This document shows positions 20,855 through 42,058 of a DNA stretch of 64,000 bases, one piece after another. This DNA is from Terriglobia bacterium (GTDB lineage Bacteria; Acidobacteriota; Terriglobia; Terriglobales; Acidobacteriaceae). How positions within the stretch are numbered: the stretch's first letter is position 1; every line of letters begins with the position of its first letter. Under the pieces are notes generated by a model. It worked only from the letters and a program-made list of their open reading frames with translations. It made no database searches and had not been told where the DNA came from. A program made the position numbers and the translations under genes. Location of the stretch: contig JAIQGL010000015.1 of the NCBI GenBank assembly GCA_020072585.1, positions 62,001 through 126,000 on the forward strand, written 5' to 3'.

Positions 20855-20875
20855 TGCAGGGATGGAGAAGCTCTA

Positions 20876-22930: not shown

Positions 22931-23643
22931 AGCTCCTCCCCATTACGGTATTGATTTCTGCGGCGCTGGTGGCGGGTTGCAAACAATCCGGCCCGCCGCC
23001 GCTTAAGCCCGCAGCCTACGGAACACAGATCACTGAAGTCAGCGGCGGCAAACAGTTGGCCCAGGTTGGATCGACCCTGCCTCAGCCGCTGGTCTTGCAG
23101 GTGAACGGCGCCGACGGTAATCCCGTTACCGGCGCTCTGGTTTCTTTGCACGGTGACGGCTTACAATTCAATCCGGTCCAGAAGCTGACCGATTCCAGCG
23201 GTCAGGTCACGGTCGAGGCACAATTGGGATTCAATCCCGGTGACTATCAGGTGATTGCTGAAACACCAAAATCCGGCGGAGGCAGCGCCACGCTCAACCT
23301 GCGGGAAATTGCGCTGGGTTACGAACAGGCAGTGGGCAAGGCGGTCAATGACCAGTACTGCATCCGCTGCCATGATCCTGAATCAACGCCGGAGCGCGTC
23401 TCCAATCTTGATAATCTTTCGCCCGCTCCTCACCAGTTCACCGACGGAGGCACGCTTAACCGGATGTCGGATGCCGATCTCACCAACATGATTGCCCATG
23501 GTGGCCCGGCGCTGGGCAAATCGCCACAAATGCCGGCTTACGCTGCCACCCTGAAGCCCGCGGAAATCAAGGCCGTTCTTTCCTATATCCGCACCGTCGC
23601 GGACCCGCCGTACCAAACGCCAGGAGTGAAATATGGGAAATAA
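22927..23643 (+). CDS. Lipoprotein with Ig-like domain and one cytochrome c heme
   Basis: A 238-residue product with a lipoprotein signal (lipobox LVAGC, Cys 18). An Ig-like/Big-type beta-sandwich follows (about 35-125: PLVLQVNGADGNPVTGALVSL), then a monoheme cytochrome c domain with CIRCH near residue 145 and a probable axial Met in PQMPAY near 200. It is a lipid-anchored periplasmic electron carrier. Four-base overlap with the octaheme gene means coupled translation and probable membership of the same complex. The Ig-like part suggests attachment to a surface or partner protein. A fusion of this kind is unusual, but I cannot say how rare without a search. Confidence 0.82.
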   Translation: MKLLPITVLISAALVAGCKQSGPPPLKPAAYGTQITEVSGGKQLAQVGSTLPQPLVLQVNGADGNPVTGALVSLHGDGLQFNPVQKLTDSSGQVTVEAQLGFNPGDYQVIAETPKSGGGSATLNLREIALGYEQAVGKAVNDQYCIRCHDPESTPERVSNLDNLSPAPHQFTDGGTLNRMSDADLTNMIAHGGPALGKSPQMPAYAATLKPAEIKAVLSYIRTVADPPYQTPGVKYGK

Positions 23644-24925: not shown

Positions 24926-25574
24926 GTGGACCGCGCCCACGTTCCATAGCTTCATTCTTTCTAGTGAGTGGCCATGCTCCATGCTACCAATAAAGGAGTG
25001 GGATCATCAGATGGAACAGGGACATGCCATGGGACAGAATCCCACGTCTAATTAGAGAAGACAGGGACGAATCTTTTCCTCTCTGTGGAATCATGCACCC
25101 ATTGCGTAAGCCATTGGTCACTTGAGTTATGTTTGTCCGACGAGATTTTGCGAACCACAAGGCTCCAAAATGGAATTTCCTTAAAAAAGATCGAGTCTTC
25201 CAAGTTGCAGTTCGACCCATTTTTGAACTGGATGGCTGCGTCTGCGACAAACCATGCTTGCAAAGTTTTTCACTTCGCATTGAGATCGGCACTCTATAAA
25301 GAAATGACAGTGAAAAGGCACAGTCTGCGGTTGACAAACAATTGCTCGTGATGGATAGTGTGTCGGGTATTCGCGGGAAATCAACTTAGGGCAGAAGTCC
25401 GCCAGATGCAAGCTGCCAAGTACAGCAGGCAATCCCCACACCACATACTAGCTTTGAGCACGAGCCTAGAGGATTTGCCGCCCCGGCGATGTTCAGTCTT
25501 TGCGCTTGTTGGGGCATCTTTAGTTGTTGGGCCAATCACAAAAGACTACATCGGGATTCACAGGAGAATTTGGC
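24926..25574. other. AT-richer leader region of the giant-protein operon
   Basis: 649 bases with lower GC than the surroundings. Several short frames on both strands lack a ribosome binding site and recognisable composition. It contains a promoter candidate at 25331-25359 and the ribosome binding site CAGGAG of the first giant-operon gene. Confidence 0.5.
25331..25359 (+). promoter_or_regulatory. Candidate sigma70 promoter of the giant-protein operon
   Basis: TTGACA (25331-25336), a 17-base spacer and GATAGT (25354-25359): perfect -35 and four of six at -10. It lies about 215 bases before the ATG at 25575, which leaves a long untranslated leader. Confidence 0.4.
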
Positions 25575-27185
25575 ATGCCGGTCCCGGGTCATGATTATGG
25601 TGTTGATACTGCCCTACAGTTGAAGGACCTCAACTGGGGGAACATTCAGGCGCAACGGAATGCAAATCCTGTTTTTGCCGGACGATATTTCAATCCTAAC
25701 GTCTCCGTTACCTGGGTGGATGAAGAAACCAAGAACGTAAAAGCGGCAAATCCAGACCTGGCGCATATCTTTCCCATGCAGAGCCCTGGTCTGCGTGAAC
25801 TTACGAGCCGTGTCCAGGGCATCGATCACATTCGTGTGGAGATCGATCCGCCTCGGATTGTTGCCCGGGCTGGAGCCGTAACCCTTTCTTCCACCGGAGC
25901 CATCACGGCCATCGCTGTTGCGAAAGGTGGGGCCGGCTATACAGCTCCACCAGCCGTAAAGATCATCAGCAGCTCAGGCGCAGGCGCCAAGGCAACCACA
26001 AACATCAATGCGCAGGGAGAAGTAACTAGTATCAACGTGACTGCTGGCGGCGCGGGGTATCGCTCAAACGTCAGAATCGTCGTGAATATCAACGCGCCTC
26101 CCGCCGGAGGAGCAACCGCCAGGGCCGGCGTTGTGACCCTTTCCGCGGCGGGAGCCATCACGAACATCGCAGTTGCAGGGGGTGGAGCGGGATATAAAAA
26201 GCCCCCGGCTATCGTCATCAAAGGTGGAAACTCAGAGGCCACCGCGACCGCCGCGATCAATGCTCTGGGAGCGGTTACAGCAATCAATGTGACATCAACG
26301 GGCTCCGGCTATCACCAGGGAATTACGGTTGACATTGATCCTCCGCCTGCGCCTGGAAGAAGAGCAACCGCCGGCGGAGTAAGTTTCACGAGCGCAGGAG
26401 CGGTGAGCGGGATTGCAATCGCAAAGCGGGGAAGCGGATACGTTGCGGCTCCGGCAGTGCATATTTCCAGCGACATCGGTCTTGGCGCGGGTGCGACCGC
26501 AACGGCAAACATTGTTGGAGGAGAAGTCACCAGCATAACCATAGTTACCGGCGGTTCATACCGGTTCGCCAACGTTGATTTCGTTCGCCGATGGGGAGAG
26601 GTTGATGCCAAGGCAACCTGTAGCCGGGTTTGGGATGTGGTGAAGGGCGGGGAACTTGCGTTTCCTGATTCCAAGACGGTCATTATCTATCTGGATATTG
26701 AAGCCATGGTCCGGCTGAATCCCCAGTATTGGGCGGGATGGGCTTCCAGCGTTTACTGGTACTGCACGGGCTTCTTTCAATGGCCTTTCTATCCTGGCCT
26801 GTACTGTACTACCAAGCACAATCCCCAGGACCACGGCGCCAACGCATTCCTGCACCGTGTTCCATCCGATGACGTGCAGGACGGCCTTACTTTGCCGCCG
26901 AATGGTTGCGCCAGCAAATGCTGGGGTGTATTTGCGACGAATCCCCAGCTTCCCAACCGTTTCGATCCAAACTACCAGCCTGACTGGCAGAACAGATTTG
27001 ATGACTGGGTCCAGACCGTTCATGTGTTTTTTGGATTGTTTGCATGGTCAGTGAAGGTCAAGGTTTTGCTATGGCAATATGGAATGCAAGGCGGATCTCC
27101 ACCGGCGTTTGATGCTTTGAATATTGACCTGGAAGAATCGTCCCCCAGCGGCGAGGCAACGCGCCGCATGCTGAAAATACCGTAA
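25575..27185 (+). CDS. DUF1906-like (glycoside-hydrolase-like) protein interrupted by three GGxGY repeats
   Basis: A 536-residue product; the start at 25575 follows CAGGAG. The N-terminal part (DYGVDTALQLKDLNWG then FAGRYFNP) and the later TVIIYLDIEAMVRLNPQYW segment look like two pieces of one Rv2525c/DUF1906-type TIM-barrel-like fold. Between them, residues about 96-332 form three tandem repeats of about 80 residues. Each has two GGxGY or GSGY turns (GGAGYTAPPAV, GGAGYRSNV, GGAGYKKPPAI, GSGYHQG, GSGYVAAPAV), as in phage and surface adhesion repeats. There is no signal peptide. Three Cys pairs occur only in the C-terminal third. First gene of a six-gene operon. A peptidoglycan- or glycan-directed role is inferred and the barrel's catalytic acid is not assigned. 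Confidence 0.62.
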   Translation: MPVPGHDYGVDTALQLKDLNWGNIQAQRNANPVFAGRYFNPNVSVTWVDEETKNVKAANPDLAHIFPMQSPGLRELTSRVQGIDHIRVEIDPPRIVARAGAVTLSSTGAITAIAVAKGGAGYTAPPAVKIISSSGAGAKATTNINAQGEVTSINVTAGGAGYRSNVRIVVNINAPPAGGATARAGVVTLSAAGAITNIAVAGGGAGYKKPPAIVIKGGNSEATATAAINALGAVTAINVTSTGSGYHQGITVDIDPPPAPGRRATAGGVSFTSAGAVSGIAIAKRGSGYVAAPAVHISSDIGLGAGATATANIVGGEVTSITIVTGGSYRFANVDFVRRWGEVDAKATCSRVWDVVKGGELAFPDSKTVIIYLDIEAMVRLNPQYWAGWASSVYWYCTGFFQWPFYPGLYCTTKHNPQDHGANAFLHRVPSDDVQDGLTLPPNGCASKCWGVFATNPQLPNRFDPNYQPDWQNRFDDWVQTVHVFFGLFAWSVKVKVLLWQYGMQGGSPPAFDALNIDLEESSPSGEATRRMLKIP

Positions 27186-27197
27186 ACCGGAGAGAGC

Positions 27198-30100
27198 ATG
27201 AGCGCCGAAGCGTTTGTTAGCGGGTTGCTCAAGAACTTTTGGCAGGCCATACAGCCGCTGATTGATGCTGTAGCGCCTCTCGGCGGCGTTCCTCCTTCCA
27301 CCAACGGCATATCGGCTTTGCTCGCCGAATTTGGTTGGGCGCTGGATCCCAATGCAGATCCCGCGGCCATGCAGAGAGTGTTTGCCGACCTTGTGCGCGA
27401 CCTGAACGCGATCGTGGCCGACGCAACCAGGCTCGATCCGCATTCGTCGCAGGCGGACATCAACCGCGTGACAGCCGATCTCGCCGCACTCCTGGCGGAC
27501 ATTGGAAATCTCGCATCCGCAGGAAGCGGCCTCACTTTCTCTCCATTCAACCAGCAGGAGTTCTGGTCGGGTCCTCAGAGCTTTCCGGTTTTGCTATGGC
27601 CATATCTGGTACACCGCTATTTGCGCAGCCAGGTCAGTATTCTTTATGGAGCGCTCCGCTTTCTCGGCATCCTGACCGAAACTTCGCACTCTGCGGTAGA
27701 CAACGGGCGCGGTGGCTATATTGAAAGGAAGATCAACTGGGAGCGAATTCCCCGGTATGCCTCGCAGCCGGGAAGCACCTTTGCCGGCGTTTATCACTGG
27801 GGTGATAGCGCTACGCCGCTCGATCATGTCGCGCTCATCCAGGGAATGGGGGCACTCGCTGGAACTTTTCCGATTGCCAGCGTGGTTGATGCGCCCAGTG
27901 AAGAAGTTCAGGACATTTTCTATCCGGCAGGAGCTCCACCCAATCTCTTGCAGTTGAGTGCATCTCCAATACCGTCATTGGACATCGACGGCCCGATACA
28001 AATTTTGCTCAAGCTGATCCTGGGCATAATTCCTGTTCCAGCGGCCGGAGGCACGCCCGCCGATCCAGTAGGGATCGCCCTCTTTCCCGTTCTGGATGGC
28101 GAAGCCGCAGCGCAATTTCAGGTGACGGAGACGTTTGCCATCACCGTGGAGGGACACTTCCAGTCCATTCCGGTGGTAGTGGAATTCCGCCCCGCACCCG
28201 GCGGTGGAATCAGCGCACAGGTGAGCCAGGTAACCCTCGATGCGCTGGCGTCGCAGACACAAATCGCCGGAACAGTGACTCTTAGCGCAAAAGCGCCGGC
28301 CGCTGCCCCATGGATTCCCCTTGGGGTTGCATCCTCGAATCGTCTTGAACTGGCAGGAGCGCATCTTGCGGTGAGGACCACAGGACCGCTCGACAAGCTC
28401 GACTACGAAGTCGAAGTCGGTTTCGATGGGGCCAAGCTGGTTTTGGACCTCTCTGATTCAGATGGATTTCTGCAAAGCCTAATGGGAAGCGGACCACAGG
28501 GCATTGATGTCTCCTGCACTATCAAATGGTCACGGAAAACCGGATTCAGCTTTAACGGACAATCCAGCGTCTCAGCAACCATCCCGGTTCACAATACATT
28601 TGCCAACGTCCTGGCCGTGGACACGATTTCATTAGCCATGGGCGCCGGGAGCGGCGCCGATACTGCAATGCTGTCAATCGCCGCTTCCGGGGGCCTTGTT
28701 TTAGGGCCAATTGCTGCTTCGGTGGAAAAAGTAGGGGCACAGCTCCAGTTCAAGAATGACCCATCGCACCACGGAAACCTTGGCGATTTCGATCTGCGTT
28801 TCAGCTTCCAGCCACCAAGCGGTATCGGGCTGGTAATTGATGCGCCCTCGGTGACGGGCGGTGGTTATCTGTTCTTCGATTTTCAAAAAGAACAATACAC
28901 CGGGATATTGCAACTGGAGATTGCAGAAACCATCGCGGTCAAAGCTATCGGTCTTCTTACCACCCGCATGCCTGATGGCTCCAAGGGCTTTTCGCTGCTG
29001 GTGATCATTACGGTGGAAGGCTTTACCCCTATCCAGCTTGGTTTTGGATTCACGCTGACTGGCATCGGCGGGCTGCTGGGAGTAAACCGCACGGCAGCGG
29101 TGGACGCGTTGCGCTCCGGTATCAAGGCCGGAGCACTCGGCTCTATCCTCTTTCCGGTTGATCCGGTGCGTAATGCGCCGCGCATCGTAAGCGATGTTGG
29201 CACGGTATTCCCGGTGGCGCTGAACCGCTACGTTTTTGGTCCCATGGTAATGATCAACTGGGGCACGCCAGTCATCCTGACTCTTGAACTCGGATTGGTG
29301 CTGGAGGTGCCGGACCCGGTTCGGTTGTTCATTCTGGGCCGTCTACAGGTCATCCTGCCGGAACCAAAAAATGCGCTGGCACAGATACGCATGGATTCGC
29401 TTGGCGTCGTTGATTTTAGCAAGGCTGAGGTCTCGCTCGACGCTACTTTATACGATTCAAAAATTCTCTCCTTTGCGCTCACCGGGGACATGGCATTGCG
29501 CGCAAACTTCGGCAGCAATCATGGCTTTCTGCTGGCTATCGGCGGCTGGAATCCGCGGTTCCCCTCTCCCGCCGGTTTTCCCAGGCTCTCGCGGATGGCG
29601 ATTACGCTCTCCAGCAGTGACAATGCGCGGCTGCGCCTGGAATCCTATTTGGCCGTTACCTCAAACACCGTTCAGTTTGGCGCCCGCGCCGATTTCTTTT
29701 TTGGCGCAGGACCTTTCGGCGTTGAAGGCTATCTTGGTTTTGATGCCCTGTTCCACTTTGCTCCTTTTTCATTCATCGCCGATCTGAGCGCAAGCGTCGC
29801 CTTGCGCGCCGGGAGCACCATACTGATGAGTGTGGGACTCACCATGACGCTCACAGGCCCGTCACCCTGGCACGTCTGGGGAACAGCGTCATTCACCATT
29901 TTGTTCGTGAAACAATCGGTGACCTTTGATGCCACGTATGGTCCTGATCCGCCTCCTGTTCTGCCTGATCCCGTCAATGTCAAGTCCCTGCTGATCGCCG
30001 CTCTCAACGATGCGCGCAACTGGAGCAGTGAATTACCGGCAAATGCGCGCCCGCTGGTTACCTTCCGCCCCGCGGCAGGCGCAACCGGTGCATTGCGCGT

Positions 30101-30566
30101 GCACCCCCTGGCGGAGCTTGCGGTCCGTGAACGCGTGGCGCCGCTGGACATGGCCATCAACAGGTTTGGTAATGCGCCGGTAAGTGGCGGCAACCTGTTC
30201 TCTTTGAAGGCGGTCCGCAGCGATACCGGGGCTGAGATACCTTCACAAAGCATCAGTGATGCGTTTGCGCTTGCCCAATTCCTGGAGATGAGCGACGACC
30301 AGAAATTGTCCGCTCCGGCTTTTACCAGCGAGCATGCTGGCATTCGCTTTACTACGGGTGATTTTGCATACGGATATGAACCTTCTCTGGATACGGCCAT
30401 CACCTACGAAACCGTAACGGTTGTGCCGGGGCAAGCGGCTGCACAACAGTTAAGGACCTTCTTCATGCCCGCAACCGCCATGGAAGGGACGATCTCGTTG
30501 GCGGCAGCGGCGCAGGCAATCAAGCAACAGACTGCCGCCAGCAGACGCGGCATAAGAACAAGGTGA
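27198..30566 (+). CDS. Giant DUF6603-like beta-rich protein, 1122 aa
   Basis: A 1122-residue protein with no signal peptide, 12 bases after the previous gene. Residues 1-240 are helical and Trp/Tyr-containing. About 300-930 is a long run of amphipathic beta strands with the stretch GGGYLFFDFQKEQYTGILQL and ITVEGFTPIQLGFGFTLTGIGG, which I associate with DUF6603, a domain without known function. The strands repeat with a period suggesting an elongated sheet or prism. The last 180 residues are less ordered and end in a basic SRRGIRTR tail. No catalytic motif, Cys pair or heme site is seen. It is probably a structural component of an assembly built with the downstream products; this is inference. 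Confidence 0.6.
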   Translation: MSAEAFVSGLLKNFWQAIQPLIDAVAPLGGVPPSTNGISALLAEFGWALDPNADPAAMQRVFADLVRDLNAIVADATRLDPHSSQADINRVTADLAALLADIGNLASAGSGLTFSPFNQQEFWSGPQSFPVLLWPYLVHRYLRSQVSILYGALRFLGILTETSHSAVDNGRGGYIERKINWERIPRYASQPGSTFAGVYHWGDSATPLDHVALIQGMGALAGTFPIASVVDAPSEEVQDIFYPAGAPPNLLQLSASPIPSLDIDGPIQILLKLILGIIPVPAAGGTPADPVGIALFPVLDGEAAAQFQVTETFAITVEGHFQSIPVVVEFRPAPGGGISAQVSQVTLDALASQTQIAGTVTLSAKAPAAAPWIPLGVASSNRLELAGAHLAVRTTGPLDKLDYEVEVGFDGAKLVLDLSDSDGFLQSLMGSGPQGIDVSCTIKWSRKTGFSFNGQSSVSATIPVHNTFANVLAVDTISLAMGAGSGADTAMLSIAASGGLVLGPIAASVEKVGAQLQFKNDPSHHGNLGDFDLRFSFQPPSGIGLVIDAPSVTGGGYLFFDFQKEQYTGILQLEIAETIAVKAIGLLTTRMPDGSKGFSLLVIITVEGFTPIQLGFGFTLTGIGGLLGVNRTAAVDALRSGIKAGALGSILFPVDPVRNAPRIVSDVGTVFPVALNRYVFGPMVMINWGTPVILTLELGLVLEVPDPVRLFILGRLQVILPEPKNALAQIRMDSLGVVDFSKAEVSLDATLYDSKILSFALTGDMALRANFGSNHGFLLAIGGWNPRFPSPAGFPRLSRMAITLSSSDNARLRLESYLAVTSNTVQFGARADFFFGAGPFGVEGYLGFDALFHFAPFSFIADLSASVALRAGSTILMSVGLTMTLTGPSPWHVWGTASFTILFVKQSVTFDATYGPDPPPVLPDPVNVKSLLIAALNDARNWSSELPANARPLVTFRPAAGATGALRVHPLAELAVRERVAPLDMAINRFGNAPVSGGNLFSLKAVRSDTGAEIPSQSISDAFALAQFLEMSDDQKLSAPAFTSEHAGIRFTTGDFAYGYEPSLDTAITYETVTVVPGQAAAQQLRTFFMPATAMEGTISLAAAAQAIKQQTAASRRGIRTR

Positions 30567-30570
30567 TGCA

Positions 30571-33270
30571 ATGACCGACGTGAATCTTGCGGCAATCAGC
30601 TTCTTGTCATGGGTGCGCCAGGGACTGGCGGCGCGAAGCGGGATTGCCGGCAGTGTCGGAGTAAAGGACGGGCATCTTGCCCTTCCCGTAAGTCTCAGCC
30701 TCAATGGCGCCAAGCTCTCAGCTTTGCCGGTGCAAATCTACGGGCCAGGCGATATTACAGGCATCGACGCGCAGGAAATAATTCGCACTGAACCGCCGCA
30801 CTTGATGGCGAATTTTGAGCCTAATTATTTCCCCTTCATTGAATTTGATCATCCTGACTTTCCCTGGATGTTTACTCCGGCGAACGCCGGAGCCGCTGGG
30901 ACCTTGCAGCCGTGGCTATGTCTTGTGGTGGTGCGAAGAGACACAGCCAACATAAGCATGGATACACGCAAGCCGTTGCCTGTGCTGGCTTGCCCATTGT
31001 GGGAGCTGCCTAATCCGGCAGAAGCCTGGGCCTGGGCTCATGCCCAAGTGGCTCGAACCGGGTCAGTGCCAAATATCAATGATGCCTTGGCGCTGCCAGA
31101 GCGTAATCTCTCGCGGATTTTATGCCCGCGAAGACTGGATCCAACGACTGCCTACTACGCATGCCTGGTGCCGACATTTGACGTAGGGCGAAAAGCCGGT
31201 TTAGGCCAGACGTTCACCAAAGATGAAGAGACAGCGTTGTTGCTTGCCTGGACGCCCGCGCCCGCTGGTGACACGCAAACTCGTGCTCAACTGCCTGTGT
31301 ATTATCACTGGGAGTTCACGACCGGAGTGGAAGGGGATTTTGAAGCGCTGGTGCGCCGCTTGCAACCGCGCGACCTGCCGGCAAGCGTTGGAGTGAGCGA
31401 AGTGGATGTGAGCACGCCGGGGTGGGGTGTTGGCCCTTATCCAACCACTGCGGCAGGGGCTGTGATGCAGATGGAAGGGGCGCTTCGCAACCCTGCCAGG
31501 CCCGCCACGCCATGGGCCGATGATGTGCGTATCCCGCTGCAAACCAAATTGAGGCAAATCCTCGATACAACGGCTAAGCCCGCAGGCAGCCAGCCCTCTG
31601 TGGTGGGCCCTCCCCTTTATGGGCAGTGGTATCCCAAGCTAGACAGCCTGCCGCCAGCGGGCAGTCCTCCTTTGTGGTTTAGCGAGGCGAACCTGGAACT
31701 ACGATTCCGGATTGCCGCCGGCTTGGGAGCCCAGGTTGTACGTTTTGAACAGGAAGATCTGATGGCTTCCGCATGGGACCAGTTGGCCGCGCAAAGCGTG
31801 GACAATGAGCAGATCAAGAGTGCTCAACTTGCGGAAGAAGTGGGACAGGCCTTGGTGGATAAGCACCTGTCCTCTCTGAATGTGGCCCGGTTTCTTCAGG
31901 TAACGGCCCCACTTCATGCAGCCGTTGTACAAAACGCCGCAGGCACATCCTCTGCAAAGGTTGCGAGCGTGACTGCGCCATCCGCGAAGGACGTTAAGCC
32001 TGCGCCCAGCGCAGTGCGACTGGCGGGGACGGAATCTACAGCCGCTTTCCGGCGGCTAGCCAGGGCTCGTGGTCCGATTGCGCGGCGTGTGGCTGCTGCC
32101 CGGGGCAAGGCGGTTCCGACTGTCGCGCAGAAGAACGTTGCTAAAATTGCGAGTGGCGCTGCTTCTCCATTCGCGCCTACAACGCCACGCGCCACCCGTG
32201 CAGTTACTTTGCTGCGCGAGACCATTGCGGGAACCGCAGTTCCAGCACCCAGCAATCCTTCGATCATGGGCACGATGCTGGGGCAAATCAATCCGTCTGC
32301 AACGGCCCTGGCGGCGGTCCAGCAGGATGCTCCCCAGGCGCAGAGCACGGATCTCCTTCGTTTCGCGCCCACGTTTTCCCAACCCATGTATGAGGCATTG
32401 CGGGACTTCTTTTCAGACATGCTGTTGCCGGGGCTGGAAAATGTCCCCCCGAATAGCATCACGCTGCTGGAGACAAATCCCCAGTTCGTGGAAGCCTATA
32501 TGCTTGGCCTGAACCATGAGATGAGCCGTGAGCTGTTGTGGCGTGGCTATCCCACGGACCAGCGAGGTACATACTTCCGGCAGTTTTGGGACGTGAGCGG
32601 ACGGGTCCCGCCTCCAACTGCGGAAGAGAGAGCGCAGCTTCTAGACATTCAACCCGCAGCCGCGTGGCAGGATAATACTCATCTTGGCGATCATGCGCTG
32701 AACAATACAGCGCCGGCAATGATCGTGCTGGCGTTGCGCGGCGATCTGCTGAACCGCTATCCACGCGCAATCATTTATTCGGTCCAGGCCCAGTGGTCAT
32801 CTGTGGCGGCCGATGCGCAACGAACTCTGGGAACCACGGAACTGTATCCGATGTTTCGCGTAACTCGGGCGCCGGATATCACCTTGCTCGGTTTTGCCTT
32901 GACTGCACAGCAGGCCCGCGGAGCGGATGTCCCAAGCGCGGCTACAGGCGCGCCGTCCACTCCCAGCAATGACGCCGGGTGGTTTTTCGTGCTTCAGGAG
33001 CAGCCAACCGAGCCGCGATTCGGACTGGACGCGGCCGCCGACAATCTTTTCGGGGCCATGCCCGCCCAATGGAGCGATCTTTCATGGGCCCATCTGGCTG
33101 CCAACGCAGCCGCATTGCGACAACTTACCCATGCCTCCGTGAATGGAAGATTGACAGGACTTATTTTGGGCAGCGCAACGTGGGGAAAAAACAGTGCGCA
33201 TATGGCCTTTATCGTTCGGCAAAGCCCTTTCCGGATGGCGGTGCACGCGAGGACATGGCTTCGGGCTTGA
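30571..33270 (+). CDS. Unknown 899-aa protein of the giant-protein operon
   Basis: Not assigned to a named family. The 899-residue product starts four bases after the DUF6603-like gene behind AGGTGATG. The N-terminal 130 residues carry a striking block: GPGDITGIDAQEIIRTEP, FEPNYFPFIEFDHPDFPW and LQPWLCLVVV. The middle (about 470-570) is an Ala/Arg/Pro-rich low-complexity linker. The C-terminal 330 residues resume ordered sequence, with LGLNHEMSRELLWRGYPTDQRGTYF near 650 and FVLQEQPTEPRFGLD near 810. No signal peptide and no membrane segment. Sequence resemblance to unnamed proteins with the same FP-EFD-DFPW block is from memory only. Confidence 0.6.
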   Translation: MTDVNLAAISFLSWVRQGLAARSGIAGSVGVKDGHLALPVSLSLNGAKLSALPVQIYGPGDITGIDAQEIIRTEPPHLMANFEPNYFPFIEFDHPDFPWMFTPANAGAAGTLQPWLCLVVVRRDTANISMDTRKPLPVLACPLWELPNPAEAWAWAHAQVARTGSVPNINDALALPERNLSRILCPRRLDPTTAYYACLVPTFDVGRKAGLGQTFTKDEETALLLAWTPAPAGDTQTRAQLPVYYHWEFTTGVEGDFEALVRRLQPRDLPASVGVSEVDVSTPGWGVGPYPTTAAGAVMQMEGALRNPARPATPWADDVRIPLQTKLRQILDTTAKPAGSQPSVVGPPLYGQWYPKLDSLPPAGSPPLWFSEANLELRFRIAAGLGAQVVRFEQEDLMASAWDQLAAQSVDNEQIKSAQLAEEVGQALVDKHLSSLNVARFLQVTAPLHAAVVQNAAGTSSAKVASVTAPSAKDVKPAPSAVRLAGTESTAAFRRLARARGPIARRVAAARGKAVPTVAQKNVAKIASGAASPFAPTTPRATRAVTLLRETIAGTAVPAPSNPSIMGTMLGQINPSATALAAVQQDAPQAQSTDLLRFAPTFSQPMYEALRDFFSDMLLPGLENVPPNSITLLETNPQFVEAYMLGLNHEMSRELLWRGYPTDQRGTYFRQFWDVSGRVPPPTAEERAQLLDIQPAAAWQDNTHLGDHALNNTAPAMIVLALRGDLLNRYPRAIIYSVQAQWSSVAADAQRTLGTTELYPMFRVTRAPDITLLGFALTAQQARGADVPSAATGAPSTPSNDAGWFFVLQEQPTEPRFGLDAAADNLFGAMPAQWSDLSWAHLAANAAALRQLTHASVNGRLTGLILGSATWGKNSAHMAFIVRQSPFRMAVHARTWLRA

Positions 33271-33300
33271 ACGCCGATTTCAATTGGAAGAGGACGAGAC

Positions 33301-34149
33301 GTGGTTTATCTCACAAACGAACTATCGTTATGGCAGGCGGAGTCACAGCGTCTTGATGCCGGAATTGCGCAATTGATAGCCGGCGCCGCACAACAGGACC
33401 AGGCGGCCGCCGCGGCGCGCGCGCGCGCTTCCGCTGCCCGGGCTGATGCAGCGCGCCTGAGCGGTGAAGCCAGCGCATTGCAATCCCAGGCAGCAGCCGC
33501 CGACGCACAGGTGGCAAGTCTGGACCAGCAGATTGCAGAACAAGTCATGAATGAACCCGACGAGTTCATTGAGGTGGGTGGCAGATCCAGACGTAATCCG
33601 GAATGGACAGTCTGGAAAGCGCGATTGGATGATTTGAATGCGCAACGCGCCCAGGCTTTCTCGTCAGCAACCAGTCTCCATGCCCAGGCCAACCAGCGCA
33701 GCGCTGCCGCGGCCCAGTCCCAGAGCGTGGCCGCCGCTGCTGATAACGATGCAGCCACCGCGACCGCTCTTGCAGGACAACTCCGGCAGCAGGCCGTGCA
33801 ACTGGCGCCGCAGAAAGCTGCCGCCGACCAGCAGATCACGAATATCACGCGATGGCAGCAGGAGCTTGCGCGCCAGCCAATGAATCGAACTGCGCTGGAG
33901 ACAACAGCGAGTGAAATTTTCAGCCAGACCAATTCTCTGGAAGGCGAGTACAAATCGTTCGTCGACCAGGCAAACGCCGCCGAGAAAAGACTATGGTACC
34001 TGCAAACACTGGCGCAGGAATTGAACAGCAAACTTGGTGATTGGCTAGGCCAACTCCTGCCGGCAGCTACCGAGGTTGCGAATGCCACAGCGGCGCTGAA
34101 CGACGTACAAACACGAATTCAGCACGTGCTGCAAAGGATACCAGAATGA
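33301..34149 (+). CDS. Alanine/glutamine-rich coiled-coil protein, 282 aa
   Basis: A 282-residue product from a GTG start behind GGAAGAGGACG. Almost the entire length is helical with heptad character and extreme Ala/Gln content, especially residues 10-75 and 120-190. A short non-helical break with NEPDEFIEVGGRSRRNPEWTVW lies at about 83-102. The two arms could fold back as an antiparallel hairpin. No export signal. Its stop overlaps the start of the 2058-residue gene (ATGA), so translation is coupled. The N-terminus of that giant protein is also coiled coil, so the two may interact directly. Function unknown. Confidence 0.62.
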   Translation: MVYLTNELSLWQAESQRLDAGIAQLIAGAAQQDQAAAAARARASAARADAARLSGEASALQSQAAAADAQVASLDQQIAEQVMNEPDEFIEVGGRSRRNPEWTVWKARLDDLNAQRAQAFSSATSLHAQANQRSAAAAQSQSVAAAADNDAATATALAGQLRQQAVQLAPQKAAADQQITNITRWQQELARQPMNRTALETTASEIFSQTNSLEGEYKSFVDQANAAEKRLWYLQTLAQELNSKLGDWLGQLLPAATEVANATAALNDVQTRIQHVLQRIPE

Positions 34150-37100
34150 GGCCTGTCACTTCTCCTGAACCAATAGAGATTGATCCGGATCTGGAGTTGC
34201 AGCGTACACAGCGTCTCCAGGAGTTGAGGGCGCTGTATGACGCAGCGGTGACGCGTTTGGAGACGGCCAAGCGCCATCAATCAGACGTTCAAGTGGCGAG
34301 CAATCAAATGCAAAATGAACTGAACCAGACCCAGGCTCAGGTGCCGGCGGCGCAGCAGGATGCAGCAACGAAACGATCAGCCGCGGATACGCGGAAGGCA
34401 CGGGTTGCCGAACTTCGGGCCGCATACGACGCGGCCACCGCGCGCCTGCTGGGCAGTGTAGACACGCGTCAGCCGATTCTGCTCCTTCCCATCCGCCTGG
34501 AAACCAGATTCATGCGCTCCTCCCTTGCTGGGCCAGTGGAATTGCTGATCCGCATTTATCCGGATGACATTCATATCGATACCCACGAGCCATTGCTGAC
34601 CGCGGATGAACAGCGCTGGGGAGTGTTTTTCCAGCAACAAAAGAACGCCACAGACGATGTGAAGAAGAGGGCATGGCGGCAGTTGGTGGAACGCTTCGGC
34701 GTGCGACGTGCGGCATGGATCGGGCGGATCTCAGCATTGCCTCCTACTACGCCGCGCACCGCTTCATGGACGCGTGCTCCTTATTCCAAAGTGCTGCCGG
34801 ATCGATGGGTGGCTGTGGCTTATCGCGGTGATCAACCGGCAGCCACAGTATGGGGAAAGGATATATTGGGAAATGATATCGGAGACTTCCTCCCCACCGG
34901 ACCCGCGCCTGTAACACCGGCCACTCCGCCCACAGCTTCCAACCCCGCATTACCTGCCGTGGACGACGGAATGCGCTGGATGGTCGATTTCGCTGTGGCC
35001 GAAAATGCGGGCATGGCACTGCGCATCCCGCTCACAGACGAGCAGGCGGCCCGTGGATTTGAACGCCTCATCGTGGTTGGTGTCAGGAACCTGGATACGA
35101 CGAATACAGCGGCGCTTGTAGTAGAGATGCTGGAGGCGCAACATTACACGCAAGGCCTTTCACTGCTGCCACAAAACACGCCGACCAACAACACGGAAGC
35201 TGCGGCTTCAGGATTTGGCGCCGGTGAGCGCGATGCAGACGTTGCCTACAGCGTGGAACAGGGAAGTCCGCTCCTAGCCGCCACGCCTCCGCTCACAGAT
35301 AACTGGTTGGATGGACACTGGCTTGCTTGGGCGCTCGGTATTACGACTGCGACCTTCGAGCATATCCACTATGCTGACGGTACGGAGCAGCGCGATGCCC
35401 GCCGAACCAACCGGCAGTTGTGGCCGCAGGATACTCCCTGGCTGCGCCGGTTGCTGATCAGCGGAGATGCAGGAAACATCTCTGATTTCATCCGTGACCA
35501 TTTCTCCAGCTATGTGATCGCGCGGGGCCCGCTTCCCACTCTCAGGGTAGGTACCCAGCCTTACGGATTGTTGCCGGTGACTGCATTTGAACGGCTCTGC
35601 CTGCGTCCCCGCTCGGGTCTGGAAGCTCTGTTCTTGCAACGTTTCCGTTCGCTCCAAAGCGTATGGAAGCGGGCGGCGGCGCTTGCTCCCTCGGTCACGC
35701 GTGGCAATGACCTGGTGCAAGTGATGGCAGGATCGGGCACAGCCTGTCGTTATCTAGCTCAGGATTTTCAAAACAATACACCGCTACCGGCAGTTGAGGT
35801 TGCGCTAGCCGATCTTGTGCCTAAGTTGCTGCTGGGTGGAAACCCTGTCCTCCTGGCTGAGACCCTGGACGCCTGCTCGCATCGTTTTGATGCCTGGGTA
35901 ACTTCGCTGGCCGCACGCCGCCTGGATGAACTGCGCAGGAGCAGCGCAGACGGCATCCGTTTAGGCGGATATGGATGGCTCGAGGATGTGCGTCCCTCGC
36001 CGCCATGGCAAACGGCAACTCCACCCGCAGGTGTGCCCGGCCCTGTATTCCAGTCACCCAGCAACATGGGATTTGTGCAGGCGCCGTCACTTGCTCATGC
36101 CACTACAGCGGCGATCTTACGCAGCGGATATCTTTCCCACCTGGATCAGGGAGATGGCAATCCATTCGCAATCAACCTCTCTTCTGATCGTGTACGCCGG
36201 GCCGAATGGCTGCTACAAGGAGTGCGGCAGGGGCAATCTCTGGGCGCGCTGCTCGGATATCGTTTTGAAAGACGCCTGCATGAGAACAACCTGGACCAAT
36301 ACATCGCCCGTTTTCGCACGCTGGCCGCTATTAAACAGAATGATGAGTTGGCCAATGCCTATGCCCAGGTCAGGATCAAACAACAACTCTACGATGATGT
36401 AAAAACGCTGCGCGACGAAGCAGCCCAGGCGCGGGCGAGCGCCACTGCGTGGCGAATCGAGAAAGAGTCACGACAACTGACGCGCCAGCAATACCAGAAC
36501 ACGATGGATGTCTTTGTGGCGCTCCAGGCCCAGGTACAAAGCGCTGCCACAGCCAGCGCAAGCGCACTCACCGCCGCAAACCAGCATCGCGCCGCCATTC
36601 TGCAAAGCACGCTCCACCGGACAACCATCAATAAGCCAGGCTTCGGTGCGGTGGAGATAGTGGACAGCGCAAGCCTGATTGAAGAAGTGGATGTCGATGG
36701 CTGGAAGGCCGCGCAGGCACAGCTTGACGCCGCATTGCAGCAAGCCCGGACCACGGAAGCGAACTTGCGTCAGAGACTGGCGGATGCCAAGCCGGCATAC
36801 GATATCGCGGTGCAGCAGGCGGCACGGCTCGATGATCCTAACAATCCGCAATCTGTTCCCGCAGCCAAAGCCGCGGAAGATCAGCAGACCCATCTTGCGG
36901 ATGGATTTGACCTTCAGGCCACAACCAAAGAAGGGCAGCCAGGCAAAGCCGAACAGGATCTCGCAGCGGCTCGGCTCACCCTTGCGCAGACGATCACCGC
37001 ACAATGGCAGAAATCCTTGGTGTCTGTAGCCGCCAACAACGTGGTGGACGGTCTGGAGTTGCGGCGGAGATGGAGTACTGGACGGCAAACACCAACCCGC

Positions 37101-40100
37101 TGGGACGCAACAACCATACCTTTTGGCGATGCCGTGCTCGGGTTTCCTGCCTCAGGTACGCCTGACTTCAATCGGCTGACCGCACAGCTGCAATGGCTTG
37201 ATGAAATGGTGGATGCAGTCGGCGACCTGGTGTTGGCGGAGAGTACTCATCACCTGGTGCAGGGGAATCCGTTGCGTTCCGGAGCAACCCTGGATGCAAT
37301 TGCCGGTGGAGAGATTCCCCCACATGAGATGGAGGTGATTCGAACGCCTCGAACCGGTATCGGGCTTACGCACCGGATGCTCGTGCTCTTCTCCAAGGCC
37401 CCCAGTTATCCGACTCCAGGCTGGCCCTTGAATGCAACGCACATGCGGGCCGTGGTTGAACCGGTAATGAATACGCTGGCGGCGCAGCTTCTGCCCGATC
37501 CGTCCCGTACCCAGTGCCGTATTGAATTTGTCAATCGTACGAGCGGGCTTGTGGTGGGAGCGGCCGATGTCGCGCTCACAGCGCTTCAGATTTCAGCGCT
37601 TGACGCCGTCTACATGACGCAAAGTTTGCAGGGACCGCAGCGCGCGGAGATCGAAGAGCGGTTGCTCTATTTCGCAATCAAGACCCAACCGATTCCCGCC
37701 AACGCCGATCTTCGGCTCAATTATGATTTGCCATCAACACCTGGAAACTTTACTCTCCGGCAATTTGCTGAAGTTGCCCGTACCGTGCGAGGTCTGATTG
37801 GCAACGCACGCGCCATCGACGGACGTGACCTCGCCATGCCCGGAGACACAGCGAACCCGGCAATGGATTTAGCCGAGGTGAGCACACGTGTTACAGCGAT
37901 ACAGCAATCGTTCAACAACGCTCTCACCACGCTCCTGGCAGCGATAGCAAGTGTGAGGGGCGCGTCCGCGACAAGCGTGGACGTGCTTGCCAACGCCTTG
38001 TTCCCGGCGGCTGCATTCGGAATTCCGGGCGCAGTCCCGGTCATTACCGTGGGAAATACGGCACAAACCCGGGCTGACATGCTCTTCCAGGGTGACTCGG
38101 TAGCCAGAGAGATGGATACGCGCCTGAAGCGGATCGCCAATTTGTCCCTCCCCGCCGGTTCCACGCCGGAGGCGCAACGTGACTACGAGCTAACTCGCTT
38201 GCGTGAGCTATTTGGTGCGGACTTCAGGATCATGTTCTGGATCACGCCCCAGAATGCAGCCAGCCTTAAGACTACATTTGCCGCCAGCACAAGCTTACAG
38301 GGAACAAATCCCATGGAATCGATTACATGGTTCCAACGCGCCGCGAATGTGCGCAACGGCGTGGCCCGGCTGCGCGACGCGCTTGAATATGCTGAGGCGC
38401 TCGGAACAGGCGCAAAACTCGCCTTGCAAGTCGGACAGCTTCCATATCAAAACGGTGACCGCTGGGCCGCTCTGAAGGGAACATTTCCGCCCGGACTGCT
38501 ATCTCTGGTAGCGCATATGCCACTTCCTCAGGCAGTTACATTTGATCAACCGGTGGCAGGGCTGCTCATCGATGAATGGAATGAGATGATCCCGAAAGCG
38601 AAGGAAATTACCGGCCTCACATTTCACTATGATCAGCCGAGCGCCGCGCCTCCACAAACCATGTTGCTGGCAGTGGCGCCGGATGACCGTCCGGTGTGGG
38701 ACCTGGATACGCTTCAGGCAACGCTGGTGGATACGCTCAATCTGGCAAAGGTGCGGGCTTTTCCGGCGGACCGCCGGACAGAGCTGCCCTGGGTTGAAGG
38801 CCGGCTGCCGCGAGGCGCGCAAATGAGCGCTGACAATGAAACCTGGCAATGGTCAACGCACGATCCCACGCCGCTTTCGACTGCGCCGGCTCATGTATCG
38901 GCAATACTTGCAGGTGAGCACCAACATTTCTTTTATGGAGCCACTGAGACGCTCAAGATTGCGCCCGGCGATACTCTGTTTGCTTACGTCTACCTTGATC
39001 CTGTCAATCCTCCGAGGGAAGTCATGCTCCAATGGAATGATGGCACCTGGGAACATCGTGCGTATTGGGGTGAGAACCTCATCGGATGGGGACAGGATGG
39101 CACAATATCCCGGCGCTGCATCGGAGCGCTTCCACCTTTGGGACAGTGGCTGCGTCTCGAAGTCCCCGCTGCCCTGGTGGGATTGGAAGGACGTGATCTG
39201 AATGGCATGGCATTTACTTTGTGGGATGGACGGGCTGCCTGGGACCGCAGCGGCCGTCTTCCGGCGCAGCCCATGTCAGTCAATGTTGCTGATGATCGCA
39301 ATGAAACTGTGTGGTTTGACGAAAAGCTTCCTGTAGGCGCCTCTCTTTTTTCGAATGCCGATTCCTGGCAGTGGGTGACGCGTGACCCGGCGCCGCGTGA
39401 CGCCAGCTTCATTCATCAGTCAAACAACACCGGGGCTGTGCATCAACATTATTTTCTGCTCCCGAGCGAGGTCGCTTGGGTGGATGATGAGTTACCAGCA
39501 GGCGCAGTTCCGAGTGCTGATCCCATTGCGGAGACCTGGCAATGGGTCAGCCAGAATCCCGCACCGCTGTTTGGGAGCCTGGCGCATCAGTCGGCCATTG
39601 TTGCCGGCGGGCATCAGCACTATTTTTCCGGAGCCGCTGCGCTCCGCGTGGCCCCGGGAGCCATGCTGTTTGCTCATGTCTACCTTGATCCTGCAAACCC
39701 GCCCAGGGAAGTGATGTTGCAATGGAATGACGGTTCCTGGGAACACCGCGCTTACTGGGGCGAAAACATGATCGCGTGGGGAACTGCCGGCACGATCAGC
39801 CGCTACTTCATGGGGCCCCTGCCGCAGCCGGGACAGTGGGTGCGACTGGAAGTTCCGGCCAGGCTCGTTGGCCTGGAAAATCACGACATCAACGGCATGG
39901 CTTTCACGCTTTGGGATGGACGCGCAACCTGGGACCACGCCGGCATTACGCCGCAGCAGTCGGCATTCAATGTGGGAAAAGGCGATGTTCTCTACGCCGA
40001 CGTTTATCTGGACGTGGTCAACACCCCTGCCACGGTAATGCTGCAATGGAACGATGGAAGTTGGGAGCATCGTGCTTACTGGGGTGCAAATAATATTCCC

Positions 40101-40322
40101 TACGGCGTGGACCAGAGTCCAAGCCGTAGACCCATGGGCGCGCTGCCCATGGCGGGACAATGGGTGCGACTTACTGTCCCGGCCAGACTGGTAGGACTGG
40201 AAGGACGAGAGGTGAAAGGTATGGCTTTTTCGCTCTCCAATGGCCGCGCCAGTTGGAATCGGGCTGGAACAATTTCCGCGCCGCTGTCACCGTCACTGGT
40301 GTTTGCGGCTGGAGTGATTTGA
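34146..40322 (+). CDS. Giant 2058-aa protein with C-terminal WQW/HQHYF and VMLQWNDG repeats
   Basis: A 2058-residue protein; the start at 34146 overlaps the coiled-coil gene by four bases. Residues 10-100 are coiled coil. A conserved-looking domain follows (LLLPIRLETRF, IRIYPDDIHIDTHEPLLT, then RAAWIGRI and LRVGTQPYGLLPV). Another coiled coil occupies about 720-960, and a mixed region extends to about 1540. The C-terminal 500 residues hold two kinds of repeat: a WQW...HQH(Y/F)F unit three times and a YLD-VMLQWNDG-WEHRAYWG-N unit three times (38784-40290), beta-sandwich-like and probably glycan- or protein-binding. No signal peptide, membrane helix or catalytic motif is seen. It is presumably the scaffold or tip of an assembly made by this operon. 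Confidence 0.65.
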   Translation: MRPVTSPEPIEIDPDLELQRTQRLQELRALYDAAVTRLETAKRHQSDVQVASNQMQNELNQTQAQVPAAQQDAATKRSAADTRKARVAELRAAYDAATARLLGSVDTRQPILLLPIRLETRFMRSSLAGPVELLIRIYPDDIHIDTHEPLLTADEQRWGVFFQQQKNATDDVKKRAWRQLVERFGVRRAAWIGRISALPPTTPRTASWTRAPYSKVLPDRWVAVAYRGDQPAATVWGKDILGNDIGDFLPTGPAPVTPATPPTASNPALPAVDDGMRWMVDFAVAENAGMALRIPLTDEQAARGFERLIVVGVRNLDTTNTAALVVEMLEAQHYTQGLSLLPQNTPTNNTEAAASGFGAGERDADVAYSVEQGSPLLAATPPLTDNWLDGHWLAWALGITTATFEHIHYADGTEQRDARRTNRQLWPQDTPWLRRLLISGDAGNISDFIRDHFSSYVIARGPLPTLRVGTQPYGLLPVTAFERLCLRPRSGLEALFLQRFRSLQSVWKRAAALAPSVTRGNDLVQVMAGSGTACRYLAQDFQNNTPLPAVEVALADLVPKLLLGGNPVLLAETLDACSHRFDAWVTSLAARRLDELRRSSADGIRLGGYGWLEDVRPSPPWQTATPPAGVPGPVFQSPSNMGFVQAPSLAHATTAAILRSGYLSHLDQGDGNPFAINLSSDRVRRAEWLLQGVRQGQSLGALLGYRFERRLHENNLDQYIARFRTLAAIKQNDELANAYAQVRIKQQLYDDVKTLRDEAAQARASATAWRIEKESRQLTRQQYQNTMDVFVALQAQVQSAATASASALTAANQHRAAILQSTLHRTTINKPGFGAVEIVDSASLIEEVDVDGWKAAQAQLDAALQQARTTEANLRQRLADAKPAYDIAVQQAARLDDPNNPQSVPAAKAAEDQQTHLADGFDLQATTKEGQPGKAEQDLAAARLTLAQTITAQWQKSLVSVAANNVVDGLELRRRWSTGRQTPTRWDATTIPFGDAVLGFPASGTPDFNRLTAQLQWLDEMVDAVGDLVLAESTHHLVQGNPLRSGATLDAIAGGEIPPHEMEVIRTPRTGIGLTHRMLVLFSKAPSYPTPGWPLNATHMRAVVEPVMNTLAAQLLPDPSRTQCRIEFVNRTSGLVVGAADVALTALQISALDAVYMTQSLQGPQRAEIEERLLYFAIKTQPIPANADLRLNYDLPSTPGNFTLRQFAEVARTVRGLIGNARAIDGRDLAMPGDTANPAMDLAEVSTRVTAIQQSFNNALTTLLAAIASVRGASATSVDVLANALFPAAAFGIPGAVPVITVGNTAQTRADMLFQGDSVAREMDTRLKRIANLSLPAGSTPEAQRDYELTRLRELFGADFRIMFWITPQNAASLKTTFAASTSLQGTNPMESITWFQRAANVRNGVARLRDALEYAEALGTGAKLALQVGQLPYQNGDRWAALKGTFPPGLLSLVAHMPLPQAVTFDQPVAGLLIDEWNEMIPKAKEITGLTFHYDQPSAAPPQTMLLAVAPDDRPVWDLDTLQATLVDTLNLAKVRAFPADRRTELPWVEGRLPRGAQMSADNETWQWSTHDPTPLSTAPAHVSAILAGEHQHFFYGATETLKIAPGDTLFAYVYLDPVNPPREVMLQWNDGTWEHRAYWGENLIGWGQDGTISRRCIGALPPLGQWLRLEVPAALVGLEGRDLNGMAFTLWDGRAAWDRSGRLPAQPMSVNVADDRNETVWFDEKLPVGASLFSNADSWQWVTRDPAPRDASFIHQSNNTGAVHQHYFLLPSEVAWVDDELPAGAVPSADPIAETWQWVSQNPAPLFGSLAHQSAIVAGGHQHYFSGAAALRVAPGAMLFAHVYLDPANPPREVMLQWNDGSWEHRAYWGENMIAWGTAGTISRYFMGPLPQPGQWVRLEVPARLVGLENHDINGMAFTLWDGRATWDHAGITPQQSAFNVGKGDVLYADVYLDVVNTPATVMLQWNDGSWEHRAYWGANNIPYGVDQSPSRRPMGALPMAGQWVRLTVPARLVGLEGREVKGMAFSLSNGRASWNRAGTISAPLSPSLVFAAGVI
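38784..40290 (+). repeat. Tandem repeats at the C-terminus of the 2058-aa protein
   Basis: In-frame repeats in the order A1-B1, A2, A3-B2, B3. A units (about 50 residues) share LPxGA, WQW, xPxP and HQH(Y/F)F. B units (about 95 residues) share VYLD, VMLQWNDG, WEHRAYWG, GQW(L/V)RL and GMAF(T/S)L. B1 and B2 are nearly identical at DNA level over short stretches, pointing to recent duplication. Confidence 0.8.
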
Positions 40323-40324
40323 CG

Positions 40325-42058
40325 ATGAAACAGCTTGATCTGGTAAATCAATGCCCTGATATGCGAGACGGATTGCAGGCCCGCGTGCACGATCCGCTGT
40401 TGTTGCTGGCGCGCCAGTGGCAGACGGGAGAATTCAAGGCCGACGATGCAGGATCACCGGTAGGCGCATACCTGAGCGTCGAGAACACCGCCGTGAGCCG
40501 GTATCGGCTCGGTGTTGTCGCCACGAATCCAGCCAGGGACTATCTCAAGGACAAGCTGCCGCTGGAGACTCTGGTGGAAAGAGAGTCTATTGTCCCGGCA
40601 GCAGGAAAACATCTCCGGACTGCCGTTCAATCAGGGCAACATTTTGTACGGTTGCTGAATGGAGCCGGACTGGCGCGCTATGTTCCCGCGCTGCTCAATG
40701 CTTTTAAACTCCAGCCTCCCACTCCAACAGAGCGAGCCTCGTTAGACAACGACACGTTGAGTTACCTGGGAGTTATGGCGACACGCGTCATCGATGGTAT
40801 TGCGCTCTATAACAAACTTGTTCCAGGCCGTCAGTCCAGCGGCCAGATAGTGCTGCCTACTGATGCGCCTTTCAATACCGTGGTGGCCGCGGACCAGCCG
40901 GCCATGATAGGGGTAGTGAGTAATTTACTGACGTGGCACGAAACACTCTTCAGCCAACCCAGTGGAAATGAAAGCGCGTGGATCAAGGAGCGGATGGAGT
41001 ATACCTTCGCCGTCTCTGGAGCAACGACAAAGGGAGAACTGGCGCTCAATGCTCCCGAATATCATGACGGAACTCTCGACTGGTTCAGCTTCGATGTCGA
41101 CACGACGCAAACACTTGGAGCTGGCGTTCAGGCGGCGAGCACGTCCTCTACGTTCCTGCCGTCACCAGTTACCTTCCGGGGTATGCCGTCAAACCGGTTC
41201 TGGGAGTTGGAAGATGGCAGCGTTAACTTTGCCAACATCGAGGCTGCGCCGCGGGACCTGGCACGCGCATTGCTTGTAACTTTTGCTTTGGAGTTCGGCA
41301 ATGATTGGTTCCTGGTGCCCGTGGAAACTCCTGTAGGCTCTCTGAGCGCCATAAGAGCGCTGGTTGTCACCAACACATTTGGGGAAAAACTACTGCTGCG
41401 GCATACCACCGCGGTCGATGGCGCAACGCCGGCATGGCGAATGTTTGGTTTGTCATCCAGCCAGGGCAGTGATGCCGCCACGGCGGCAAAGTTCACGGAT
41501 GTATTCTTTCTTCCTCCAGTGCTCGGGCCCAATCTTGAAGCTGATCCGGTGGAAGATGTGCTGCTGCTCCGCGATGAGATGGCGAGCATGGCATGGGCTG
41601 TTGAACGCACAGTGGAAAGCCCGGGAGGCCGCCGTCTGGACCGGTATGAGAACACTGTCCAAAAACCGCAGCCAGCCGCAACGGGAGCAACAGCGACTGG
41701 CTCGCAGCCAGGCGCATTGAAACGATTTGTGTATCGCATGGGCACGAGTGTGCCTGATTACTGGATTCCATTTTTGCCTGTACAGACAGGATCGGCAGTG
41801 CAACTCAGACGCGGATCATTGCCGGGAATACAGCCGGGCAGCATGATCCAGCCGCTGGGCCGCCTCCTTGTTCCCGGACAGGACCTGTTTCTGCGCGATG
41901 AGGAAGTTCCACGCGAAGGAGCGCGCGTCACTCGCAGCTATCAGCATGCGCGCTGGTCGGATGGTTCCACGCATGTATGGGTGGGACGCCGCAAAGAACC
42001 AGGCCGTGGCGAAGGATCGAGCGGTTTGCGGTTCGACATTCTCGACTCGCACTCATGA
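40325..42058 (+). CDS. Unknown 577-aa protein, last gene of the giant-protein operon
   Basis: A 577-residue product starting two bases after the giant gene. The opening MRDGLQARVHDPLLLLARQWQ then GEFKADDAGSPV is a strong, regular signature that I recall from unnamed proteins in several phyla but cannot name. The middle contains WFSFDVDTTQTLG and a WELEDGSVNFANIEA block, then EDVLLLRDEMASMAWAVER, all looking like a conserved soluble fold. The end (FLRDEEVPREGARVTRSYQ, then WVGRRKEPGRGEGSSGL) is basic. No signal peptide or membrane segment. Tight spacing argues that all six proteins act together. A start from 40160 would lie within the giant gene and is rejected. Confidence 0.62.
   Translation: MKQLDLVNQCPDMRDGLQARVHDPLLLLARQWQTGEFKADDAGSPVGAYLSVENTAVSRYRLGVVATNPARDYLKDKLPLETLVERESIVPAAGKHLRTAVQSGQHFVRLLNGAGLARYVPALLNAFKLQPPTPTERASLDNDTLSYLGVMATRVIDGIALYNKLVPGRQSSGQIVLPTDAPFNTVVAADQPAMIGVVSNLLTWHETLFSQPSGNESAWIKERMEYTFAVSGATTKGELALNAPEYHDGTLDWFSFDVDTTQTLGAGVQAASTSSTFLPSPVTFRGMPSNRFWELEDGSVNFANIEAAPRDLARALLVTFALEFGNDWFLVPVETPVGSLSAIRALVVTNTFGEKLLLRHTTAVDGATPAWRMFGLSSSQGSDAATAAKFTDVFFLPPVLGPNLEADPVEDVLLLRDEMASMAWAVERTVESPGGRRLDRYENTVQKPQPAATGATATGSQPGALKRFVYRMGTSVPDYWIPFLPVQTGSAVQLRRGSLPGIQPGSMIQPLGRLLVPGQDLFLRDEEVPREGARVTRSYQHARWSDGSTHVWVGRRKEPGRGEGSSGLRFDILDSHS

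Follow-up and report, generated by a model that had tools for sequence, protein, structure and literature searches.

The 64,000-nucleotide stretch of contig JAIQGL010000015.1 examined here (hereafter the window), part of the 6.9 Mb genome of a Terriglobia bacterium, carries a block of six large genes, A to F, at positions 25575–42058. All six lie on the + strand and encode proteins of 536, 1122, 899, 282, 2058 and 577 amino acids, separated in order by 12, 4, 30, -4 and 2 bases. An earlier note on this DNA had given the same sizes and spacings for these open reading frames, but had placed the block at 25331–42058. The end of that interval is correct; its start is not, as 25331 marks a promoter-like TTGACA hexamer rather than a start codon and coding runs from 25575. 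The promoter-like element 5′ of gene A (TTGACA-17-GATAGT, 25331–25359, + strand) is a motif match that does not rise above chance, with five such matches in the region against a mean of 7.3 in shuffled sequence.

Gene A (25575–27185, ATG at 25575) encodes the lead-slot protein of this copy, with GGxGY-type repeats between unassigned domains and no family. The product of gene B (27198–30566) has a helical N-terminus, DUF6603 at residues 470–1034 and about 26 amphipathic strands in its predicted model. Gene C (30571–33270) belongs to a core family with two conserved halves, between which relatives carry a variable insert. The coiled coils proposed in the earlier note are found in gene D (33301–34149), a coiled-coil protein that has a relative at the same place in Nitrospira defluvii. 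Gene E (34146–40322, ATG at 34146) holds its core family at about residues 105–1550 and ends in a decoration (38781–40319) of three MLQWNDG..EHRAYWG repeats, in which the repeat part of a previous claim of binding repeats is recovered. Gene F (40325–42058, ATG at 40325) represents a third core family, with the motif LARQWQ and a predicted fold that remains unmatched.

Family searches placed only B. It is a clear member of DUF6603 (Pfam PF20248, E 3.8e-134, 448.4 bits against a cut-off of 27). Searched as whole proteins, A, C, E and F matched nothing in Pfam at 0.1 or in NCBIfam; D gave weak coiled-coil matches only. The lone Pfam match of E, at 0.12, is at chance level, and its C-terminal part by itself reached 0.031, which is below the cut-off. 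A glycan-hydrolase-like fold had been suggested for the block; gene A has no glycosidase family match in Pfam, NCBIfam or the PDB, and its reading as a glycoside hydrolase was rejected. Profiles of F (62 rows), C (35 rows) and E (29 rows) found nothing among solved structures at E 1, and the profile of B gave weak matches, mostly to helical proteins along its N-terminal part (best E 0.0044). A likeness between E and F by profile comparison (probability 37) was not used as evidence. A plasmid search found no relatives of the C-terminal part of A or of the E repeats, and a literature search for DUF6603/PF20248, the F motif and the cassette, with most subscription papers and preprints outside its scope, returned no paper. 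C, E and F are thus best described as three large putative families that match nothing in the libraries searched. None of these searches moved the proteins into a known system, which the earlier note had said would refute its proposal; the one placement, of B, is in a family of unknown function.

Conservation of the block is evident in its signature sequences, FDHPDFPWMF in C, LLPIRLETRF in E and HDPLLLLARQWQ in F, which had been called regular enough to define a new conserved cassette. All three coincide with strongly conserved alignment columns (35 rows for C, 29 for E and 62 for F, the window counted). Relatives of F numbered 126 in a scan of one genome per species, and the best 80 of the 126 were kept. 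Gene order was scored with profiles, on the same strand, in loci with enough DNA present. E lies within 1.5 kb upstream of F in 77 of 78 loci, C upstream of F in 63 of 66, and B upstream of C in 53 of 62. In four of the nine loci scored as lacking B at this place (L060, L087, L092 and L094), coordinates put it just 5′ of C, beyond the stretch scored. Other misses comprise a locus where F is broken and the rest of the cassette absent (L067), one where C is absent from the stretch scored (L054), one with C and B behind F on the opposite strand (L062), and three with B downstream of F and two further genes in between (L064, L081 and L097). These last are alphaproteobacterial copies; the two extra genes between F and B are large, and those scanned have no Pfam match over the cut-off. 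L026 has E and F joined in one frame, as do several loci of Streptomyces and its relatives.

Co-occurrence agrees with gene order. Among the F-bearing genomes searched, DUF6603 was found in 50 of 50 and C likewise in 50 of 50. The family of a Streptomyces centre (297 genomes) has F in 25, DUF6603 in 65 and both in 23, and the two F genomes without DUF6603 (G447 and G531) have partial F matches. The earlier note had named homologues occurring singly as a reason for doubt. This is true of the DUF6603 domain, which occurs without F in 42 of 65 Streptomycetaceae genomes; for C, E and F such cases are few and mostly broken or partial. They are the loci without C or with a broken F described above (L054 and L067), a copy elsewhere in the same genome on contig C48 that lacks B and C but retains E and a truncated F, and a plasmid of Streptomyces on which F is accompanied only by a short E remnant (L099, 17664–19686). 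The latter two are exceptions to strict linkage. C was weakly present in just two of the 42 genomes with DUF6603 and without F, indicating that C goes with F, whereas DUF6603 is used more widely. Only the short repeats of gene A were found in the 50 cassette-bearing genomes, in five of them. Direct alignment matched D to its positional counterpart in N. defluvii (score 258, against a highest score of 124 in 200 shuffles); BLAST found no other relative, although this is a weak test for a coiled coil. Taken together, the order and co-occurrence of homologs mark B-C-E-F as the new conserved cassette that had been proposed, and A and D were not seen in its conserved core.

The cassette is widespread. 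A tree of 62 F proteins spans Actinomycetota, Pseudomonadota, Nitrospirota, Bacteroidota, Acidobacteriota, Verrucomicrobiota, Bacillota, Chloroflexota and Cyanobacteriota, with the family present in organisms as different as Streptomyces, Neobacillus and haloarchaea. Cellulomonas sp. Root485 and Streptomyces resistomycificus are cultivated environmental bacteria that carry it. Haloarchaeal copies are on plasmids; the Salinigranum marinum row holds an annotated DUF6603 protein and a lamin-tail protein. The window copy clusters with four Nitrospira (99*) and lies well away from that of its genus-mate (L011), and a Mesorhizobium copy is placed among Streptomyces and relatives, in a tree built by a quick method whose support stars are less trustworthy. 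Among 297 Acidobacteriota genomes F occurs in five, in one of them in pieces (G212; L159, 8043–9808). Distribution is patchy, with signs of transfer between phyla. Such a patchy, modular and apparently transferred element might be expected of an anti-phage or other defense system, yet A, B, C, E and F matched no known or candidate defense model in PADLOC, which makes a defense role highly improbable; it was rejected on this ground.

The gene immediately upstream of B varies. We surveyed this lead slot in 46 loci (40 plus L013, L014, L098, L100, L101 and L103) and found a hydrolase in 23. Seventeen are PhoD-like, a count made with a profile to which 10 of these 17 proteins had contributed; of six compared with Pfam, those of L013, L109, L112 and L131 exceed the PhoD cut-off. 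The remainder are PLD-like (two of 46, L107 and L125), subtilases (two, L108 and L111), an M64 peptidase (one, L142) and a weak trypsin-like protein (one, L143). Catalytic motifs are retained in 16 of the 17 lead proteins tested, the exception being the weak trypsin-like one: GDQIYADD is present in 10 of 10 PhoD-like leads, two HxKxxxxD motifs in both PLD-like leads, HExxH in both M64 leads, and the GTS and H motifs in both subtilases, with the Asp-motif pattern unmatched in L108.

Exchange of the lead is visible among close relatives. The window carries A where two examined of its four Nitrospira tree partners carry a PLD-like gene. In N. defluvii (L158, 1455–20000) the genes run PLD, B1, M64 peptidase, B2, C, D, E and F, such that two enzyme-B pairs precede one chassis. 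This tandem suggests that an enzyme and its B protein may form an exchangeable unit. With the leads mapped as labels onto a tree of 44 B proteins, 16 changes suffice, against 24.0 for shuffled labels and as few in none of 200 shuffles; relatedness alone can produce so low a count. From these comparisons we conclude that the gene 5′ of B is a variable and apparently exchangeable slot, often filled by a hydrolase, which had not been part of the earlier description.

Variation is also found within the chassis proteins. Among relatives, the segment that separates the halves of C ranges from a few to ~750 residues. A domain scan of seven insert-bearing proteins found FG-GAP repeats in the C proteins of L071 and L098 (below the cut-off in L037), a Lamin-tail domain below the cut-off in F of L092, and PA14 with a weak F5/8C match, below the cut-off, in F of L039; no domain was found in C of L041 and L103. 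The C-terminal repeats of E in the window have relatives in F of L039 and C of L041, suggesting that decorations move between proteins. C, E and F thus carry exchangeable inserts, of which some belong to binding types. Sec-like N-termini (hydrophobic uncharged stretches) were sought in a crude scan, which was negative for all 43 C, 80 F, 14 B and 16 lead enzyme proteins, and positive for three secreted-looking neighbors in the window. These results bear on whether the cassette encodes a surface array or giant adhesin set, in which a coat would be exported by an unrecognized route and the lead hydrolase would degrade polymers for nutrition. Binding-type inserts and the GH59-ricin lectin gene near one copy would suit such a coat; the lack of visible signal peptides, and of linked secretion genes noticeable by eye, would not, and we consider a surface array unlikely.

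Structures were predicted for F and B as single chains. The F model (predicted local distance difference test, pLDDT, 82.9; predicted template modeling score, pTM, 0.80) has no PDB match at 0.001 (best 0.13). The B model (pLDDT 76.0) is a long antiparallel meander, so that of the DUF6603-like beta prism proposed previously the DUF6603 assignment stands and the prism does not. Its nearest folds are outer-membrane barrels, with FimD ushers, LptD and other large barrels among the matches (best 4.4e-5) and human ApoB100 lower down. Residues 458–914 contain 26 strands alternating a hydrophobic and a polar face, with a mean face difference of 2.99, against a mean of 1.23 and a maximum of 1.85 in 2000 within-strand shuffles. 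B shares amphipathic antiparallel strands with outer-membrane barrels, but the crude scan saw no signal peptide in 14 B proteins, and hosts such as Streptomyces, Neobacillus and haloarchaea do not provide the outer membrane that such a barrel needs. An ordinary outer-membrane barrel is unlikely because the family occurs in Gram-positive bacteria and archaea and no signals were seen. We infer from the model that the B sheet may insert into membranes or bind lipid.

Lipid binding raises the alternative of an intracellular complex for handling lipid or envelope material, in which lipid would sit in a hydrophobic groove or shell formed by the DUF6603 sheet, and the enzymes would process the bound material within the cell. 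Strands with one hydrophobic face, weak fold matches that include LptD and ApoB100, PhoD-like or PLD-like genes at 19 of the 46 leads, and the failure of a crude scan to see an export signal are all compatible with this. The subtilase and M64 leads and the FG-GAP and PA14 inserts better suit extracellular targets, and a patchy spread across phyla is unlike that of a housekeeping complex; an intracellular role is on balance doubtful.

A second arrangement of B and C was found in ten other DUF6603 loci from Streptomycetaceae and Acidobacteriota (L015, L016 and L160–L167), which share a sibling 'type II' layout. As in the window, a DUF6603 gene is followed by a distant C relative (E 2.7e-9 in L016); unlike the window, these stretches contain no E or F by profile, and two other conserved proteins follow. 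The C-like protein of L016 has BLAST relatives in 10 of 10 sibling loci and its 342-amino-acid protein in nine of 10, L016 included in both counts, and the C profile matches at 0.001 in L016, L160 and L162. The two following proteins are one of ~340 amino acids with the motif FFYIDRSWTD, sometimes fused, and one of ~1000 amino acids. The same B-C pair therefore seems to underlie a second type of cassette.

Kinship with contractile or viral particles is a further possibility, in which the cassette would be related to contractile injection systems or phage tails but would have lost the sheath. The partial E-F copy on contig C48 (G000:C48; L017, 5445–10382; L144) has as a neighbor, ~4 kb away, a contractile injection system that includes sheath, gp19-like tube, AAA and Pvc16 genes, and the short repeats of gene A match phage structural PHROGs, baseplate among them, in a match confined to the repeats. 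The C48 copy itself gave no clue to function. Ten proteins of its contractile system had no BLAST relatives in the other loci except an AAA ATPase in L075 (32% over 172 amino acids), in a search that diverged sheaths could escape. None of B, C, D, E and F matches a structural PHROG, F has no match among viral models at 0.001 (best 0.0037, probability 0.06), and viral_contigs holds no relative of F. Pfam and PHROGs revealed no sheath, tube, baseplate or AAA gene within the block, in agreement with the earlier note on sheath, baseplate and AAA genes. The sole match in a phage collection, MT835531 (L102), is named Bacteriophage sp. but is unannotated and unverified; it reads like a bacterial contig because it contains pieces of B, C and E besides F. 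A contractile system was rejected as an explanation, its genes being absent near relatives save for one AAA gene and only a partial second copy adjoining one, and viral origin was rejected with it. A sheath-less contractile or tail relative is accordingly very unlikely.

The reading that we favor, although it stops somewhat short of probable, is that a widespread cassette, of which the block is a single copy, builds a multi-protein, non-contractile assembly that carries a swappable hydrolase. Families that travel together across nine phyla and haloarchaea, often beside an exchangeable hydrolase, usually build a molecular machine. Support comes from conservation, gene order, co-occurrence, the variety of leads with their motifs, the decoration swaps, the modeled amphipathic strands and the absence of a signal in a simple scan. 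The conserved chassis would consist of C, E and F, joined in this subgroup by D, and B would carry a giant amphipathic beta sheet and pair with the enzyme encoded just upstream. The lead slot would be exchangeable, and insert sites in C, E and F would accept exchangeable domains. With no export signal seen, a preassembled particle released by lysis or by an unknown route appears most likely. The choice of target surface would fall to the decorations, while B would bring the hydrolase up to a membrane or help it across. Mutual binding of the proteins, exit of the particle from the cell and delivery of the enzyme are inferred. A more specific version, held only tentatively, is a polymorphic non-contractile delivery machine of a new class common to bacteria and archaea, whose C-E-F chassis takes enzyme-plus-B units and whose B sheet engages membranes. 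If true, this would be a delivery or display system for which our searches found no description, with natural variants ready-made for testing.

Several observations weigh against such an assembly. Many lead slots hold something other than a hydrolase: three of 46 are WD40 proteins (L123 and L136 by Pfam, L138 by likeness), nine are other or unfamilied genes, and 11 have no clear same-direction lead gene (L101, L103, L106, L110, L117, L120, L129, L133, L134, L135 and L141). The nine others are the genes of the three alphaproteobacterial loci, a DUF2515 gene (L104), four with no family (L115, L124, L126 and L127, the last with weak matches only) and the GH59-ricin lectin gene of L139, which is 361 bases off. 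Gene A, the window's own lead, has no recognized enzyme domain. Two of the PhoD-like leads compared with Pfam fail, one below the cut-off (L122) and one with a peptidoglycan-binding domain only (L098), and the PLD, M64 and S8 leads do not each fall in one B clade. Most chassis proteins have no known insert, with Pfam matches at 0.01 in none of 35 C rows and one of 29 E rows, the longest C proteins lying outside these rows. In the signal scan, start sites were mechanical or trimmed and single proteins may be misjudged, and E came from the window only. Downstream genes read by eye showed no lysis or export gene recurring beside the cassette. The B model has a pTM of 0.49, and its top ten fold matches have template modeling scores to the query of 0.09–0.16. 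Finally, both structural models, of F and of B, are of single chains.

Elsewhere in the window, a convergent regulator with Trans_reg_C and TPR repeats lies immediately 3′ of the cassette (42171–44543), and a similar-looking regulator was noticed by eye downstream of L039. Upstream of the cassette, 16940–23643 contains a redox block of flavin/4Fe-4S oxidoreductase, cytochrome b and multi-haem cytochrome c genes. A tRNA-Glu (ttc) is encoded on the - strand at 55554–55631.

The proposed assembly was assigned to none of the known systems compared. Gene B belongs to DUF6603 (PF20248), a family that extends more widely than the cassette. Tc toxin complexes are large, signal-less multi-protein assemblies with a variable enzyme, composed of TcA, TcB and TcC domains; their likeness to the block is by analogy only, as Pfam finds no TcA-, TcB- or TcC-type domain in B, C, E or F. 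Extracellular contractile injection systems are preassembled, signal-less particles with exchangeable cargo and binding parts. Although it has no sheath, tube, baseplate or AAA gene, the block as we read it would share with them this idea of how such a particle works.

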